Shown here: piece after piece, positions 15,441-27,473 of the stretch | Position numbering within the stretch: the stretch's first letter is position 1 | How the letters are laid out: the number at the start of each line of letters is the position of its first letter | Source of the DNA: Prevotella sp. | GTDB lineage: Bacteria > Bacteroidota > Bacteroidia > Bacteroidales > Dysgonomonadaceae | Assembly: GCA_031260865.1 (NCBI GenBank) | Contig: JAISKQ010000221.1 | Span: forward strand, 1-27,473 | DNA length: 27,473 nucleotides | Direction of reading: 5' to 3' | Notes under the pieces: model-generated | The model's input: the letters and a program-made list of their open reading frames with translations, nothing else | Database searches by the model: none | Told to the model about the DNA's origin: nothing | Program-made: the position numbers and the translations under genes

Positions 15441-17969
15441 ATGAGTTTACGTATAGTTATAACATCTATCATATTCCTTATATATACTTCCCCATCTATA
15501 TCACAAGGTTTATACATCAAAGGAAATAATTCCTTAATAGATGAAAGAACTTCCTATAATGTATTTGAGAGAAACACTCCTACATTCAAGAATATTTTGA
15601 TGATGGATTTTGATATAGTTCCAGAAAATCCTCGTTCGAGAGGAAGCATTGTGCGTATTAAAAATGAAGATATTGACGCGGTTTATAATATATCATACAA
15701 TGGCGAGGAAAAAATACCGGTTTTCAAACTCAATCATGAAGGATCAAATACGTTAATATCAATACCTTTCGATAAAGATATTTTGAACGAGAATCAATGG
15801 ATAAAAATACATGTTGAGTTTGACATGGTAAAAGATTCCATAAAGCTTCGGGTAGATGAAAAAGAAGCTTCAACGAGATTGGAACAAAAGAAAAACAGTT
15901 GGCTTCCATATATCTATTTTGGACGAAGTGAACATGTTATTGATGTTCCTCCTTTCAAACTGCGGAACTTGACTATTTCGGACAATGAAAAAACATATTA
16001 TTTCCCTCTAAACGAAAGCGATGGAGAATATGTACACGACTCAAGCCAAAAGATAATGGGACATGTTTCCAATCCTGTATGGCTGATAAATGATGCTTAT
16101 TACTGGAAAAAACGACCTGCTTTTTCTTCTAAAAAAGTCGCCGGATCAAACTTCAACTCTAATACACAAGATATCTACTACTTCAATGAAGATTCTATAA
16201 TTGTATATAATATACGCACAGAAGATATAAAATCCCACAGATATACAAACAGTTGCCCTATGCCCATGCGTTTGGGTACGAACTTTATCGATCAACGTAA
16301 TAACAGGCTCTATATATATGAAGTCGCGGATCCTCCTTATGGCGATATTGTAATAGCCTATCTGGATTTACAAAGCTACACTTGGACTGCTGTCTCTTCC
16401 GAAGTTTTGCCCATGCAGCTGCATCATCACAGCTACTATATGGACGTGGAGAATAACCGCTATATAATCTTCGGCGGTTTTGGAAGGACTTCGTACTTCA
16501 ATAATTTCTATTCGTTCAACTTAGCGTCTAATCACTGGGGAAGACTTCATTTTAAAGGAGATACAATTACGCCGCGCTACTTTACGTCAATGGGGTATAA
16601 CAACTCGGATAATAAACTTTACCTATTTGGAGGAATGGGCAACAGCGCCGGAGACCAGACTGTCGGACGTGTATATTATTACGAGTTGTACAGGATAGAT
16701 TTAGAGAATAAAAAGATAGATAAATTGTGGGAGATACCGTGGAATAAAGAGAATGTTGTTCCCGTTAGGAATATGGTCTTTTCTGATAAAAACCATTTTT
16801 ACACCTTGTGTTATCCGGAACATTTTTCCCACTCATTTCTCAAGCTATACCGTTTTTCGGTTACTGATGGAAATTATGAGATATTAGGGGATTCCATCCC
16901 TATCTTATCCGAGAAAATAACAACAAACGCAAACCTATACTATAATTTACGGACTAACGAATTACTATCGATAGTACAAGAATTTGACTACGATGATGTA
17001 GCCTCCACAGCTAAGATATATTCTATCTATTTCCCTCCCGTAACAAAAGATGAACTGGCAACATACACCTCAAAAACAACAAATTGGTCATGGATAATAG
17101 TCGCCATTTCTATATTATTGATTCTTATGCTAATATCTATATCTTTTCTCCTTCGCATAGTCCTCCGAAAGAAAAGGCACAAACAAGAGGACATTGCTTT
17201 AAAAGACAAGACATTAAGTAAAAACATCGCAACGGCTGATAGTCAACAGATAGAAACCCGTCCAAACTCGATTTATCTCTTTGGCGATTTTTCTATAACG
17301 GATCGGAAAAACAAGGAAATCAACTATCTGCTTAGCGCCAAATTGCGCCAGGCATTCTTCCTGATTCTATATCATAGCCTTGGCAAAGGTATAACTTCCC
17401 TGAAATTCAGCGAATACCTATGGCCGGGCAAATCGTATAATAAAGTAAAGAACTCGCGTGGCGTAATTCTAAATAACCTGAGAAAGATACTGAGTGATTT
17501 GGATGGTATAAGCCTAAAACATGAGAAAGAAGGCACTTACAAAATAACGTTCTCCAAAGAATGCTATTGCGATTATCTACGCTGCCTTGAGATTGCTTCA
17601 GGAAACAATATGGATGAAAACATGGATGAGTTCATTTCGATTGTATCAAGAGGAAAATTCCTTAAATCGGAAGATATTCAGCTATTCGATTCCTTCAAAG
17701 AATACATTGAACGAAAAACCGAATCCGCTTTATATTTCTATATGGAGAAATCTTATGAATCAGCCAATTATACAAAAACAATTTCATTGAGCGAAAGCGT
17801 CTTCAATTTAGACCCGTTGGATGAAGAGGCGCTCCATTATATGATAAAGGCTCTGTTGAGATTAGAATTAAAAGATGAAGCAAAACGTAGATACTTCCTC
17901 TTTGCGGTGGAATACAAGAAGACGATGGGAGAAGAGTATGGCAAGTCTTTTAGCGATTTATTGAAATAG
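15441..17969 (+). CDS. Membrane-spanning transcription regulator: LamG/Kelch sensor, TM helix, SARP-like DNA-binding domain
   Basis: An 842-residue protein. Residues 1-22 are a signal peptide (ending SISQ). Residues about 23-200 resemble a LamG/concanavalin-like sandwich. About 215-530 is a Kelch/galactose-oxidase-type propeller with the blade motifs IIFGGFG (near 342) and LYLFGGMG (near 392). One membrane helix (about 549-572, WSWIIVAISILLILMLISIS) precedes a basic stop-transfer patch RKKRHK. From about 610 a winged-helix of the OmpR/SARP type begins (IYLFGDFSIT..., with ILNNLRKIL as the likely recognition region), and 710-842 matches the helical BTAD domain of SARP activators (SESVFNLDPLDEEALHYMIKALL). 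The protein would sense something outside the cytoplasmic membrane and act directly on DNA. It converges on the PUL end at 18102, so it is a candidate PUL regulator; that link is inference. Confidence 0.82.
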   Translation: MSLRIVITSIIFLIYTSPSISQGLYIKGNNSLIDERTSYNVFERNTPTFKNILMMDFDIVPENPRSRGSIVRIKNEDIDAVYNISYNGEEKIPVFKLNHEGSNTLISIPFDKDILNENQWIKIHVEFDMVKDSIKLRVDEKEASTRLEQKKNSWLPYIYFGRSEHVIDVPPFKLRNLTISDNEKTYYFPLNESDGEYVHDSSQKIMGHVSNPVWLINDAYYWKKRPAFSSKKVAGSNFNSNTQDIYYFNEDSIIVYNIRTEDIKSHRYTNSCPMPMRLGTNFIDQRNNRLYIYEVADPPYGDIVIAYLDLQSYTWTAVSSEVLPMQLHHHSYYMDVENNRYIIFGGFGRTSYFNNFYSFNLASNHWGRLHFKGDTITPRYFTSMGYNNSDNKLYLFGGMGNSAGDQTVGRVYYYELYRIDLENKKIDKLWEIPWNKENVVPVRNMVFSDKNHFYTLCYPEHFSHSFLKLYRFSVTDGNYEILGDSIPILSEKITTNANLYYNLRTNELLSIVQEFDYDDVASTAKIYSIYFPPVTKDELATYTSKTTNWSWIIVAISILLILMLISISFLLRIVLRKKRHKQEDIALKDKTLSKNIATADSQQIETRPNSIYLFGDFSITDRKNKEINYLLSAKLRQAFFLILYHSLGKGITSLKFSEYLWPGKSYNKVKNSRGVILNNLRKILSDLDGISLKHEKEGTYKITFSKECYCDYLRCLEIASGNNMDENMDEFISIVSRGKFLKSEDIQLFDSFKEYIERKTESALYFYMEKSYESANYTKTISLSESVFNLDPLDEEALHYMIKALLRLELKDEAKRRYFLFAVEYKKTMGEEYGKSFSDLLK

Positions 17970-23235: not shown

Positions 23236-26200
23236 TCAAAACTGTACTTTTACACTAAACCCTAAACTCTTCAGACTAGGTTGCATAAAATAATCAAATC
23301 CCTGATAATAAGTACCTGTTGAGGCTGTTGTTTCAGGATCATAAGGAGCCTTATTATAAATCATTAATAAATTTCTAGCGATAAGCGAAATACTTAACTG
23401 ATCAATATTTCCGTTAAACAATTTAGCAGGGAATGTATAGCCCAAAGAAGCTTCTCTTAGTCTCACATTGGTAGAGCTATATACATACTCGGATAATATA
23501 CCGGTTGTCCCGCCTCCTATTACCGCATAGTAATTCTCCGGGTTCAGACGACCATCATTTATCAGCACCCCACCTTCATCACGAGCCTTCGCCGATGAGG
23601 CGGATGTTCCATATCTATCCATTAATGCTTGAGTAGCAGACACTCCGACACCACCTATACGCGCATCGATAAGGAAACTGAGATCAATTCCTTTGAAAGA
23701 GATTGTATTGTTCCATCCTAAATTATATTTAGGGTTTACATTACCTGCCCGTACCCAATTTTGAGGATCAGCTGTTACGGCGCCACTTTCTCCATCAACA
23801 TGTACATAACCGTTGTTATCTTTACGAAGAGTAGATACATATATTTCTCCCATAGAAGCGCCTTCATTCAACTGCATACGGTAAGATCCGTTTTCGCAGA
23901 CATTTAATGAATTTTGACTCATTGGTTTTCCGGTTGTCGGATCAATTGTACCTTCAGGCACAAGTTCTTTTATCTTATTCCGGTTCAACGTATAGGTCAA
24001 GTTAGAATTCCAGCCTATAGAGCCAAACGAGTTTTTATAACCTAATGCAACTTCAAATCCCCAGTTGTTTACTTTACCTGCATTCAGGAACGCGTGTGAA
24101 ATACCAACGGCGCTACTTCCTGCTTTTACTTTAAATAGCTGATTATAGGTATTTGAATTATAATACGTTACATCTAAGTTGAATTGATTTTTCAAAAAAT
24201 GTATATTTGTCCCTATTTCGAAAGCTTTTGTTCTTTCCGGTTTTAGACCATCAGCGGGATAAAAGGCTGTAAGATCTAAAACGCCATTGGTTATTCCATA
24301 CGAATTTCTAGTAATATAACGTTGAGGAGCATTACCGACTTCACTATATGAAGTTCTCAATTTCATAAAAGAAATTATATCCCTTGGCATTTCAAATATA
24401 TCAGACAATACACCCGACAAACCTACCGAAGGATAGAAAAAACTAGTACCCCCCTTAGTAAAAGCCAACTGGGAAGCCCATTCGTTACGCGCGGTAAGAT
24501 CTAAATATACCAAACTGTTATACCCCACCTGAAGTGTCGCGAAAAGAGCTTGTGTCTGATCTTGAAAGCCTGATTGAATAGGTTTTGTCTGAGCATCAGC
24601 CATATCTATATTAGAAAAAGAAAAGAAGTTAGGCGCTTGGGATAAGAATCCTTCCAGTCCTGCCACTTCATTCTTCATATCCATTATACTCGCTCCGATT
24701 GTAGATGTCAGGCTTATGTTATTATTAAAGCGCTTGTCTATATTTGCCAGGATGTCAGCATATATTTGTTTATCTGATAATTTTCTATTCTGATAGTAAC
24801 CATTTTCCGAAGCAAACATTAAATCAGAAGAAGCGGATATTTTACGGGTGAAAGTGTTCTCCGTATTGTCCATACGCACACGTCCTGCTACATTCAACCA
24901 ATCAAGGACATTATATTTCAACGATCCTGTAATTGAATAACGGTCTGTTTTATTTTGGAATCTCTCTCTATTTGTAATCCAATAAGGATTTTGCATACCT
25001 AAGCCCTGATTTCCATAAGGCCAAAACTGAGTTTTAAAGTTACGCTCCGCGTTATACCGTTCGTATACTTTATATTTGTTGAAGTCATCTCCACGAGGGA
25101 ACAGATAAAGCGGTAACAGCGGATTATGGAATTGCCCCTGAGTCATCATATTCAAATCTTTCTGACGGGCATACGACATCGCCAAGTCGAGGCTCAACTT
25201 ATTTTTTATAAGGTCTGTCGAATTTCTTATATTCATATTGAGCCTGTTAAGATCGTTGTTCGGTAAAATACCGCGAGCCTGCATAGCGGCAAGAGAAACA
25301 AAAGTCTGATTTCGTTCTGAACCAACCGAGGCGCTCAATGAATTCATCTCTGTATAACCTGTTTGGAAAAAATCTTTCGGATCGTAACAAGAAGGAGCTT
25401 CCAGTTTTGCGCCCCAACTATTGAAAGCATTATCTTTAGTTCCATAAGTATTCTGAAATTCAGGCATAACGAAAGGACTCATGAACTGGGTGCTGTTGGA
25501 ATAGCTCATTTTAAGCTTACCCGCTTCCCCTCTCTTGGTGGTTATGAGAATAACGCCGTTAGCCCCTTGACTACCATATAGCGCGGCGGCGGCAGCTCCG
25601 GTTAAGACAGATATACTTTCCACATCATCCGTATTGAGAAAAGAGATAGGGTCGCTATCTCCTCCGTCCGGAGATTCATAAAATGACTCGGGTTGCTCAT
25701 TCTTTGTACTAATGATAGGAACGCCATCTATCACATACAATGCGTTATTTTCTCCAAATAATGATTTTGTTCCACGCATAACGACACGTGATGAGCCTCC
25801 TATCCCGGAAGCGCTACTATTAATTTGCACACCGGCTACTTTTCCGGCAAGGCTATTAATGAAGTTAGCGTCTTTTACAGTAGTCAACTCTCCTGCCTTT
25901 ATTTCCTGCACATTATAAGTTAAAGCTTTAGCCTCTCTTTTAAGCCCTAATGCCGTTACAACCACATCACCCAATATAACGTTATCTTCTTCCATCACAA
26001 GGTCGAAAGTGGTGTTAGTACCCACTAATACTTCTTTGGATAAATAACCCATATACGAGAAAACTAAGACATCTTTATTAGTTACCTTGATGGTATATTT
26101 GCCATCTACATCTGTTGCTATACCATTGGTAGTACCTTTTATGACAACATTAACGCCAATCAAAGGTTCGCCTTGTCGATCTTTTATTTGTCCCGATATC

Positions 26201-26634
26201 GTTTTACCTCCATCTTGTTTCACAGACTGATATTCTCCTACTTGTTTCGTATTCTGTTTATCTGTCAATATTATACTCTTGTCCAAGACGGAATAAGCTA
26301 CATTTGTCCCTTGAAACATTTCGTTCAATACGACAAAAATATCTTTCTTTGATACGGCAATGGAAACTTTCCTGTTAACATCAATCTGCTTCGTATTATA
26401 GAAGAACGTAAATTCAGATTGACTCTCTATTTGTTTGAGTACATTTTCTACTGTCTGATTTTTCACATTGAGATTCAATACCGCATTTTGAGCATAACTA
26501 TTCGACGCTTGAATCAAACCAATAGAAACGCATATAAATATAAAACACAATTTCATAGGCAGTGGGATTTTATCAAATGTTTGTCGTGCTGACTTTAACA
26601 TCCAGGGCCATTGGATGATAAAATAATTTTTCAT
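23236..26634 (-). CDS. susC: SusC-like TonB-dependent outer-membrane transporter with STN domain
   Basis: A 1132-residue protein. After a 26-residue N-terminal extension comes a signal peptide (27-49, ending SYAQ). Residues about 55-125 are an STN/secretin-TonB domain (VENVLKQIESQSEFTFFYNT), which contacts a FecR anti-sigma factor. Residues 146-215 are a CarboxypepD_reg-like domain (GEPLIGVNVVIKGTTNGIATDVDG). Residues about 225-345 form the TonB plug (DVVVTALGLKREAKA, YVIDGVPI), and the rest is the 22-strand barrel ending in FSVKVQF. It imports oligosaccharides with SusD across the outer membrane. The STN domain and the fecR gene just upstream show that it also signals substrate to a sigma factor. 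Confidence 0.96.
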   Translation of the reverse strand: MKNYFIIQWPWMLKSARQTFDKIPLPMKLCFIFICVSIGLIQASNSYAQNAVLNLNVKNQTVENVLKQIESQSEFTFFYNTKQIDVNRKVSIAVSKKDIFVVLNEMFQGTNVAYSVLDKSIILTDKQNTKQVGEYQSVKQDGGKTISGQIKDRQGEPLIGVNVVIKGTTNGIATDVDGKYTIKVTNKDVLVFSYMGYLSKEVLVGTNTTFDLVMEEDNVILGDVVVTALGLKREAKALTYNVQEIKAGELTTVKDANFINSLAGKVAGVQINSSASGIGGSSRVVMRGTKSLFGENNALYVIDGVPIISTKNEQPESFYESPDGGDSDPISFLNTDDVESISVLTGAAAAALYGSQGANGVILITTKRGEAGKLKMSYSNSTQFMSPFVMPEFQNTYGTKDNAFNSWGAKLEAPSCYDPKDFFQTGYTEMNSLSASVGSERNQTFVSLAAMQARGILPNNDLNRLNMNIRNSTDLIKNKLSLDLAMSYARQKDLNMMTQGQFHNPLLPLYLFPRGDDFNKYKVYERYNAERNFKTQFWPYGNQGLGMQNPYWITNRERFQNKTDRYSITGSLKYNVLDWLNVAGRVRMDNTENTFTRKISASSDLMFASENGYYQNRKLSDKQIYADILANIDKRFNNNISLTSTIGASIMDMKNEVAGLEGFLSQAPNFFSFSNIDMADAQTKPIQSGFQDQTQALFATLQVGYNSLVYLDLTARNEWASQLAFTKGGTSFFYPSVGLSGVLSDIFEMPRDIISFMKLRTSYSEVGNAPQRYITRNSYGITNGVLDLTAFYPADGLKPERTKAFEIGTNIHFLKNQFNLDVTYYNSNTYNQLFKVKAGSSAVGISHAFLNAGKVNNWGFEVALGYKNSFGSIGWNSNLTYTLNRNKIKELVPEGTIDPTTGKPMSQNSLNVCENGSYRMQLNEGASMGEIYVSTLRKDNNGYVHVDGESGAVTADPQNWVRAGNVNPKYNLGWNNTISFKGIDLSFLIDARIGGVGVSATQALMDRYGTSASSAKARDEGGVLINDGRLNPENYYAVIGGGTTGILSEYVYSSTNVRLREASLGYTFPAKLFNGNIDQLSISLIARNLLMIYNKAPYDPETTASTGTYYQGFDYFMQPSLKSLGFSVKVQF

Positions 26635-26641
26635 AAATTTG
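26611..26641 (+). promoter_or_regulatory. Antisense promoter overlapping the susC start
   Basis: On the plus strand TTG (26611-26613), 20 bases, then TAAATTTG (26634-26641) matches the Bacteroidetes -33/-7 pattern, with the same spacing as the tRNA promoter at 14054. It reads away from susC, into its leader. Confidence 0.55.
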
Positions 26642-26647
26642 TAATGT

Positions 26648-26740
26648 TTAGTAAAAATAATTTCTTTTAGCCTTTAATTATAAGGCGGATAGACATTGTT
26701 TCATGTAAGGAGATACGCCAATATTTCCTTACATTTTTTT
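26648..26740 (+). ncRNA. Candidate antisense small RNA opposite the susC leader
   Basis: A consensus plus-strand promoter (26611-26641) and an intrinsic terminator (26703-26740) frame an RNA of about 93 bases complementary to the region between fecR and susC. The start is estimated as about seven bases after the -7 element. No coding frame lies in it. Bacteroides PULs with sigma/anti-sigma control are known to carry antisense RNAs at susC 5' ends (for example DonS of B. fragilis), which repress the locus. The match here is by position and signals only. Confidence 0.5.
26703..26740 (+). terminator. Intrinsic terminator between fecR and susC, plus strand
   Basis: ATGTAAGGA (26703-26711) and TCCTTACAT (26726-26734) form a perfect 9-bp stem with a 14-base loop, followed by seven T (26734-26740) on the plus strand. 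No plus-strand gene precedes it, so it marks an RNA start within the susC leader region. Confidence 0.65.
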
Positions 26741-26778
26741 AGGTTTTCTTTCTCTTCATGGCATTAAAATTGTTAGGG

Positions 26779-27473
26779 TTAATAAATTTCGATTATACTC
26801 TTATCTACTTTATTTGTATTATTATAAGTGGTTATATATCGGCTTTTTATATTCGATGAAATTTTAAAATATTCCAATATCCTATCCAAACGCTGATGTT
26901 CAAATGTACCGGAGAATGAATAATCTTTAAGCTTAGGGTTTTTGATTATAAAGTCAACATTGAAACGTTTACTTAATATCTTGAGGGCATTCTCCAAGGA
27001 GGTGTTGTTAAAAATGATTTTCCCGTCTATCCACGCAATGTCAGATTCCACGTCAACCGATGTTGTGACGGCGGTTCTATTCAACGTATTGTAAACACTT
27101 TTTTGATTTGGAGTCATCAATAAATGTCGGACATCATTTTCGGCGGAAAGGTACGATAACCCAATCTTTCCATTTACCAATGTAGTAATAACATCCTCAT
27201 TTTTACTATATGCCTCCACATTAAACTCTGTTCCTAAAACTTCTATCCGTATATTATTCGCCGTCGAAACTATAAACTTATGTTTTAGGTCTTTTTCGAC
27301 TTTAAAATATGCTTCTCCATTTAATGTTACTTCTCTTGTTTCTCCGGTAAATTTAAGCGGATATTTTAAAGATGATTCGGAATTAAGCCACACTTTGGAA
27401 CTATCGGGCAATGTTAATTGTGTAATCATTCCCGGATTCGTTTTTATTTCAATATATTCATCTGTGGTTATTG
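26779..27473 (-). CDS. fecR: FecR family anti-sigma factor, 5' end beyond the window
   Basis: The frame runs off the window end at 27473. The visible start ATG at 27429 is internal, because the upstream codons are open and read ITTDEYIEIKTNPG, the normal FecR sequence before MITQLTLPDSSKVWLNS. Residues from there to about 110 form the periplasmic FecR domain (LNGEAYFKVEKDLKHKFIVST, IRIEVLGTEFNVEAYSKNED). The last 70 residues are the DUF4974/STN-like domain (NTSLENALKILSKRFNVDFII). FecR proteins span the inner membrane, hold an ECF sigma factor, and respond to the STN domain of SusC. The sigma gene should lie just upstream, outside this window. It ends 145 bp before susC. Confidence 0.93.
   Translation of the reverse strand, partial: ITTDEYIEIKTNPGMITQLTLPDSSKVWLNSESSLKYPLKFTGETREVTLNGEAYFKVEKDLKHKFIVSTANNIRIEVLGTEFNVEAYSKNEDVITTLVNGKIGLSYLSAENDVRHLLMTPNQKSVYNTLNRTAVTTSVDVESDIAWIDGKIIFNNTSLENALKILSKRFNVDFIIKNPKLKDYSFSGTFEHQRLDRILEYFKISSNIKSRYITTYNNTNKVDKSIIEIY

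Follow-up and report, generated by a model that had tools for sequence, protein, structure and literature searches.

Among the closest described systems is DonS of Bacteroides fragilis, which represses an N-glycan-specific PUL by a mechanism called unknown (PMC11697453). Ten DonS-like RNAs were reported in Bacteroides thetaiotaomicron, five of them by Northern blot, and members of this family are 78-128 nt long (PMC7366714). Later, 32 PUL antisense RNAs were annotated in B. thetaiotaomicron, with some antisense/PUL pairs anti-correlated and others positively correlated (PMC10994844). Small RNAs such as FopS and GibS also act on PUL mRNAs, and FopS-10 blocks translation of susC(BT_3983) (PMC11697453). 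Functional work on DonS-type RNAs has been called for (PMC11697453; PMC10994844).

The window analysed here, a stretch of 27,473 nt from Prevotella sp. (GTDB family Dysgonomonadaceae; contig JAISKQ010000221.1), makes up an entire contig; the draft genome it belongs to has 335 contigs and is 74% complete. A minus-strand PUL occupies its right end, in the order fecR, a 144-bp gap, susC, susD, GH18, a BT_3987-like/LamG protein and an F5/8 type C protein. Domain search showed the GH18 to be of the BT1044/EndoS kind, and an N-glycan-type PUL is the best reading of the locus. FecR together with an STN-type SusC points to sigma/anti-sigma control, with the sigma gene expected past the contig end. Several of the closest named SusC relatives belong to Dysgonomonas, which makes this probably Dysgonomonas DNA; a literature search turned up no paper on small or antisense RNAs in that genus. 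Adjoining the PUL on the opposite strand is a Kelch-repeat protein of 842 aa (window 15441-17969, plus), in which a transmembrane stretch and, at the C-terminus, a regulator-like part can be made out by eye. The earlier note had proposed an antisense RNA unit between fecR and susC. The features of this region are as follows.

26594..26598, plus strand: A/T tract TTTAA, 40-36 bases 5' of the -7 element, a possible UP-like promoter part (from class counts)
26611..26613, plus strand: TTG, a -33-like element (letters read; weak across the set)
26634..26641, plus strand: TAAATTTG, -7 element fitting TAnnTTTG and overlapping the susC start codon
26646..26740, plus strand: predicted antisense RNA, about 95 nt, non-coding (start by -12/-5 spacing, end at the T-run)
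26670..26686, plus strand: first RNA hairpin, GCCTT / AAGGC (single-sequence fold only)
26703..26740, plus strand: intrinsic terminator, stem-loop 26703-26734 plus T-run to 26740 (terminator scan, fold, letters)
26739..26759, minus strand: mini-ORF ATGAAGAGAAAGAAAACCTAA (MKRKKT), with GCC directly 5' of its ATG and a stop that meets the 3' end of the antisense RNA
23236..26634, minus strand: susC with STN domain (Pfam STN, Plug, TonB_dep_Rec_b-barrel), its leader opposed by the antisense RNA
26779..27473, minus strand: fecR (anti-sigma; Pfam FecR and FecR_C), truncated by the contig end at 27473

Reading the letters bore out the promoter of the earlier note, since TTG is followed by exactly N20 and TAAATTTG on the plus strand, and its T at 26634 pairs with the A that opens the susC ATG (minus, 26634-26632). 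The proposed terminator hairpin is also present: its arms ATGTAAGGA (26703-26711) and TCCTTACAT (26726-26734) are perfect 9-mers about 60 bp past the promoter, and the T-run at 26734-26740 reaches the claimed seven T when the final base of the stem is included. On folding, the terminator stem comprises 13 pairs, including G.U, around a 6-nt loop. Some measures had to be adjusted. The gap, given as 145 bp, measures 144 bp from the fecR stop to the susC ATG. A short RNA stands, but instead of about 93 bases from 26648 it is predicted to be about 95 nt with +1 two bases away at 26646, because TAnnTTTG, the -7 element motif of the housekeeping sigma factor (PMC7366714), occupies -12 to -5 (PMC9723704). 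The promoter does overlap the start codon, but the RNA itself would begin about 11 nt upstream of the ATG. Such an RNA would be fully complementary to most of the fecR-susC gap, and therefore to the susC leader as far as the leader extends. Its sole ATG is directly followed by TAA. The 93-nt RNA folded with z = -5.73 and its complement with z = -3.47. An Rfam search of 26400-27000 gave no match above the gathering score and two sub-threshold ones, both to eukaryotic families.

This layout resembles that of the DonS family, whose members are divergent to susC in PULs with sigma/anti-sigma genes: the predicted RNA lies opposite the susC start and leader of such a PUL, its 95 nt compare with 78-128 nt (PMC7366714), and it has its own promoter and intrinsic terminator, which we assume to be a mark of the family. 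The 32 PUL antisense RNAs of B. thetaiotaomicron occupy the same position relative to susC, judging from the text of PMC10994844. The window differs from DonS in that it comes from another genus, probably Dysgonomonas, and that the unit is known here from DNA; the likeness to DonS is judged by layout. FopS and GibS of B. thetaiotaomicron pair partially near the start codon (PMC11697453), whereas the window RNA would be fully complementary in cis and end about 11 nt short of it.

The earlier note considered the three parts together hard to explain otherwise. The pattern TTG-N19..21-TAnnTTTG can be read at 5 places in the window when both strands are counted, so that the promoter pattern alone is weak evidence, and the same is true of the terminator alone, since a scan of 24500-27473 found this one site where shuffles gave a mean of 1.9. 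What is rare by chance is the arrangement.

The arrangement was therefore counted across other loci. The comparison set held 147 entries labelled STN-SusC with upstream DNA, namely the window, 79 places picked by hand among the matches listed and 67 loci (those of 80 whose SusC match starts at residue 53 or earlier), and 20 control SusC genes whose match begins only at about residue 130. Of these 167 entries, 18 STN and 1 control were set aside, either for want of an ATG or an upstream ORF or because the gap was shorter than 60 bp; this left 129 STN and 19 control gaps, of which 100 and 17 were non-redundant; 11 control gaps without an upstream ORF were retained at a fixed 200 nt. Two entries labelled STN, L017 and L021, match only from residues 145 and 134, and both are outside the 100. 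Relatedness was removed in part, at 85% similarity for the 100 gaps and at 65% for a stricter set of 72 clusters. The gene upstream of susC was identified as fecR by Pfam in the window and is an upstream ORF in the other gaps. As generic baseline, 621 starts of genes flanking the 67 named loci were used. The register, the A/T tract, the wobble skew and the mini-ORF motif described below were noticed first, and the later counts were made in mostly the same sequences.

An intrinsic terminator on the antisense strand was found in 59 of the 100 non-redundant gaps (52 antisense only, 7 both strands), and one on the sense strand in 9 (2 sense only, 7 both). Shuffled gaps had a terminator at rates of 2.6% antisense and 0.5% sense, and control gaps in 1/17 and 3/17, respectively. 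In gaps from genomes that for the most part belong to the window's genus and family it was present in 39/58, and it was also seen in named Bacteroides, Tannerella, Tannerellaceae, Alistipes, Pedobacter, Sphingobacterium, Mucilaginibacter, Parapedobacter, Chitinophaga and Terrimonas; the gaps counted from Prevotella/Segatella (0/3), Proteiniphilum (0/2) and Rikenellaceae (0/2) had none. The terminator rule was strict: L172, a B. fragilis GH18 PUL gap that we take to be possibly the don locus, has a weak hairpin with few T and was scored as a miss. An in-register TAnnTTTG and a strong antisense terminator are thus both absent from this probable B. fragilis counterpart. The genome of the window holds two further STN-type susC places, one (G000:C90, L029) with a hairpin and A-run by eye, outside the counts, and one (G000:C225, L051) without an antisense terminator.

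Such a hairpin might instead act on the sense strand, as the end of the fecIR transcript or as a susC attenuator. The two-way terminators in 7/100 gaps and the sense-only ones in 2/100 fit this, as does the sense strand of the window, which beats shuffles (z -3.47). Against it, the T-run of the window lies on the antisense side only, and mismatches in the stems point the same way. Across 53 stems of antisense orientation, the mismatches, taken in their sense-strand letters, comprised 59 A.C and 7 G.T; A.C on the sense strand is G.U in the antisense RNA, so these are mostly pairs tolerated by the antisense RNA alone. Counted per stem, 38 lean to antisense-tolerated mismatches and 2 to the opposite. 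Because A and C are frequent in the sense strand, some skew toward A.C is expected; the baseline in weak hairpins was 157:68, and the observed skew exceeded it (p = 1.4e-4; 0.005 on 25 stem clusters), so base composition accounts for part, not all, of the skew. The antisense RNA also folded better than its complement in 57/59 gaps. Given the T-run side, the wobble direction and the fold energy, the sense-strand reading is disfavoured, and we regard it as very improbable.

The earlier note had suggested an alignment to look for covarying stem bases. In five relatives including the window, the terminator stem had 13 consensus pairs, 6 of them changed on both sides and one broken in 2/5 relatives; compensation is thus seen in the terminator stem. 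A two-hairpin consensus had been expected, but the first hairpin was not recovered and the terminator alone was. Among terminator loops at other loci, L029 and L035 share TTGCAG, and L042 has its exact inversion, CTGCAA; the stems are similar, so that the loop looks as though it flips inside the palindrome.

A conserved antisense -7 element, also to be looked for according to the earlier note, does recur. TAnnTTTG stands near the start codon in 32/59 gaps with a terminator, 3/41 without, 1/19 control susC and 6/621 generic starts. It is mostly in a single register, with its first T the complement of the A of ATG (30/39 STN-type sites versus 1/42 generic), and the terminator was present in 28/30 in-register gaps. 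In the 72 stricter clusters, 20 had both parts, 21 the terminator only, none the promoter only and 31 neither (p = 1.4e-6). A fixed -7 register on the susC ATG was not found in the open PUL-antisense literature searched, as far as its excerpts go, and the Cao 2016 DonS paper lies outside that scope; for this reason parts of the anatomy may already be described.

These counts bear on two other explanations. In one, the terminator is a mere insulator that shields fecIR from antisense transcription, and the short RNA has no role. The 27/59 terminator gaps without TAnnTTTG near the start codon speak for it; the promoter-terminator association in the 72 clusters (p = 1.4e-6) speaks against it, and so do the predicted RNA lengths, which across gaps centre on 89 nt, near the 78-128 nt of the DonS family (PMC7366714). 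We consider an insulator alone improbable. In the other, the match is due to chance in AT-rich DNA, or an A-rich start context mimics the -7 element. The gap is indeed AT-rich, and the relaxed form TAnnTTT, in register-range in 49/59 terminator gaps, 8/41 gaps without terminator and 57/621 generic starts, is also common at non-STN susC starts (9/19 controls); likewise, AAAnnTATG is found at the start codon in 7/19 controls. However, AAAnnTATG occurs in 17/621 generic starts versus 45/59 terminator gaps, TAnnTTTG in 6/621, and the -7 element is associated with the terminator. The 621 generic starts thus disfavour mimicry despite the relaxed form at non-STN susC, and we hold chance or mimicry for the least probable account, close to negligible.

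Other promoter parts were counted in the same classes. An all-A/T tract at the place of TTTAA was found in 34/59 terminator gaps, 6/41 without, 2/19 controls and 57/621 generic starts. Strict TTG-N19..21-TAnnTTTG was found in 10/59, 1/41, 1/19 and 4/621, respectively; the -33 element is weak across the set, and it is likewise not findable in F. johnsoniae (PMC7366714).

A further explanation accepts the RNA as made but incidental: polymerase bound on the start codon of susC, or running into polymerase on the sense strand, would itself hinder susC transcription. It is consistent with a promoter fixed on the start codon and with RNA sequences and stems that vary widely between gaps. On the other side, stem structure is kept on the antisense strand, which fits a stable RNA, yet would also fit a mere terminator. 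Interference of this kind seems to us unlikely, though a serious candidate.

The earlier note took loss of promoter and hairpin in close relatives as evidence against the unit. Setting aside whether they keep the same PUL, six near SusC relatives gave a mixed result, with partial units in three and none or another hairpin in three. L003, whose SusC is 75% identical to the window's, has a different hairpin with a T-run and a -7 ending in A, as do L005 and L007; L004 (SusC 65%) has neither hairpin nor -7, and in L008 and L009 a two-way hairpin near fecR is all that is present, without -7. The most similar gaps belong to L023 (SusC 53% identical) and L055, whose SusC proteins are less like the window's than those of the near relatives. 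They carry in-register TAGATTTG and TAATTTTG, respectively; L055 keeps the whole unit, and L023 keeps the in-register -7 and, by eye, the hairpin and T-run. The gaps of L133 (uncultured Bacteroides) and L164 (B. acidifaciens) resemble those of L023 and L055. The first SusC residues (window 26570-26634, minus; L023, L055, L133) seem tied to the gap type, not to the SusC body: SusC proteins behind window-type gaps are alignable from residue 1-3, and that of the 75%-identical L003 from residue 26 only. An exchange of susC heads is possible.

To look further afield, the gap DNA was searched against 393 genomes of the order. It matched 47 of them, including the window's own, and 28/29 foreign loci were examined (L207 was left out). 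Many matches were AT-rich noise, and 11 lay where an ORF of 150 aa or more begins. At six of these 11, all in other families (L186, L187, L188, L189, L191, L204), an in-register TAnnTTTG stood at the start of the long ORF, known by its length only, together with an unrelated hairpin and a T-run, seen by eye. Among 13 gaps outside Bacteroidales by name, 6 had a terminator, 1 an in-register -7 and none both.

A short sense ORF borders the antisense RNA in the window, and similar ones recur. An ATG lies between fecR and the hairpin in 54/59 terminator gaps, with a stop within 8 codons in 44/54 (the ATG being chosen by the analyst). The motif G[CT][CT]NATG was found in 46/100 gaps versus a Markov expectation of 6.1%, and in 3/17 controls; 33 of the 46 read exactly GCCTATG. 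A stop followed within 8 codons in 43/46 of these gaps, compared with 17/46 for the +2 frame over the same span. The motif is found both with the terminator (32/59) and without it (14/41), and by eye the mini-ORF was also seen outside Bacteroidales. We considered GCCTATG as an ECF -10 element, no ECF motif being known for B. thetaiotaomicron according to the excerpt of PMC7366714. This is disfavoured because the distance to an upstream AACC varies by eye over about 6-18 nt, unlike promoter spacing, and because of the early in-frame stop in 43/46. The mini-ORF could nevertheless be part of a promoter. The susC(BT_3983) fragment was inferred to start about 77 nt 5' of the ATG, a fragment end that is maybe not the true start (PMC11697453); if sense transcription generally starts there, the mini-ORF would lie outside the susC mRNA. 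Short ORFs in long leaders have been remarked on in general (PMC7366714), and our literature search on a susC mini-ORF, covering titles and abstract openings, found no 2-8-codon mini-ORF between fecR and a hairpin.

As a tentative proposal, which we think possible but somewhat less than even in likelihood, FecR-linked susC genes of many Bacteroidales may have a built-in module of an ATG-fused antisense promoter, a terminated antisense RNA and a sense mini-ORF near the RNA 3' border. The mini-ORF, mostly of 2-8 codons and often started by GCCTATG, would be either a translated leader or part of an ECF promoter. One stretch of DNA serves both as start codon and as antisense promoter, and this would tie together elongation on the sense strand, the start of translation and initiation of the antisense RNA.

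Taken together, the recurrence of promoter and terminator in relatives, the compensated stem and the fitting PUL support the antisense unit of the DonS kind that the earlier note placed between fecR and susC, and the window very probably carries a real one. The predicted RNA is likely a brake on susC. What the DNA shows is the anatomy and its recurrence; beyond this we infer transcription in this organism, repression and the following switch logic. Housekeeping sigma factor would drive synthesis of the non-coding small RNA, about 95 nt long, from a -7 element built over the susC start codon, and transcription would head away from susC and end at the intrinsic terminator just before fecR. Without substrate, pairing of the RNA with the leader, polymerase on the susC start region, or both, would keep leaky susC expression low. 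A receptor signal passing via FecR to the ECF sigma factor would then induce strong sense transcription that overruns the antisense promoter.

We favour this DonS-type antisense RNA, made by housekeeping sigma factor and holding down leaky susC until FecR-controlled sense transcription takes over, with moderate confidence, because of the terminator and promoter counts, their association, the wobble direction, the fold energy, the loci of other families and the RNAs known in B. thetaiotaomicron. Counting against it are the near relatives with partial or lacking units, the 27/59 terminator gaps without TAnnTTTG and the relaxed -7 at non-STN susC, as well as the positively correlated pairs (PMC10994844), the want of a gap with both parts outside Bacteroidales and L172 with neither part.

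The recurring anatomy, with an RNA short of the start codon, a promoter fused there and a stem kept on the antisense strand, narrows the mechanisms open to DonS-type RNAs. Its sequence signature lets such RNAs be found in Bacteroidales without RNA-seq, and the mini-ORF/GCCTATG element may bear on the ECF promoters of such PULs.
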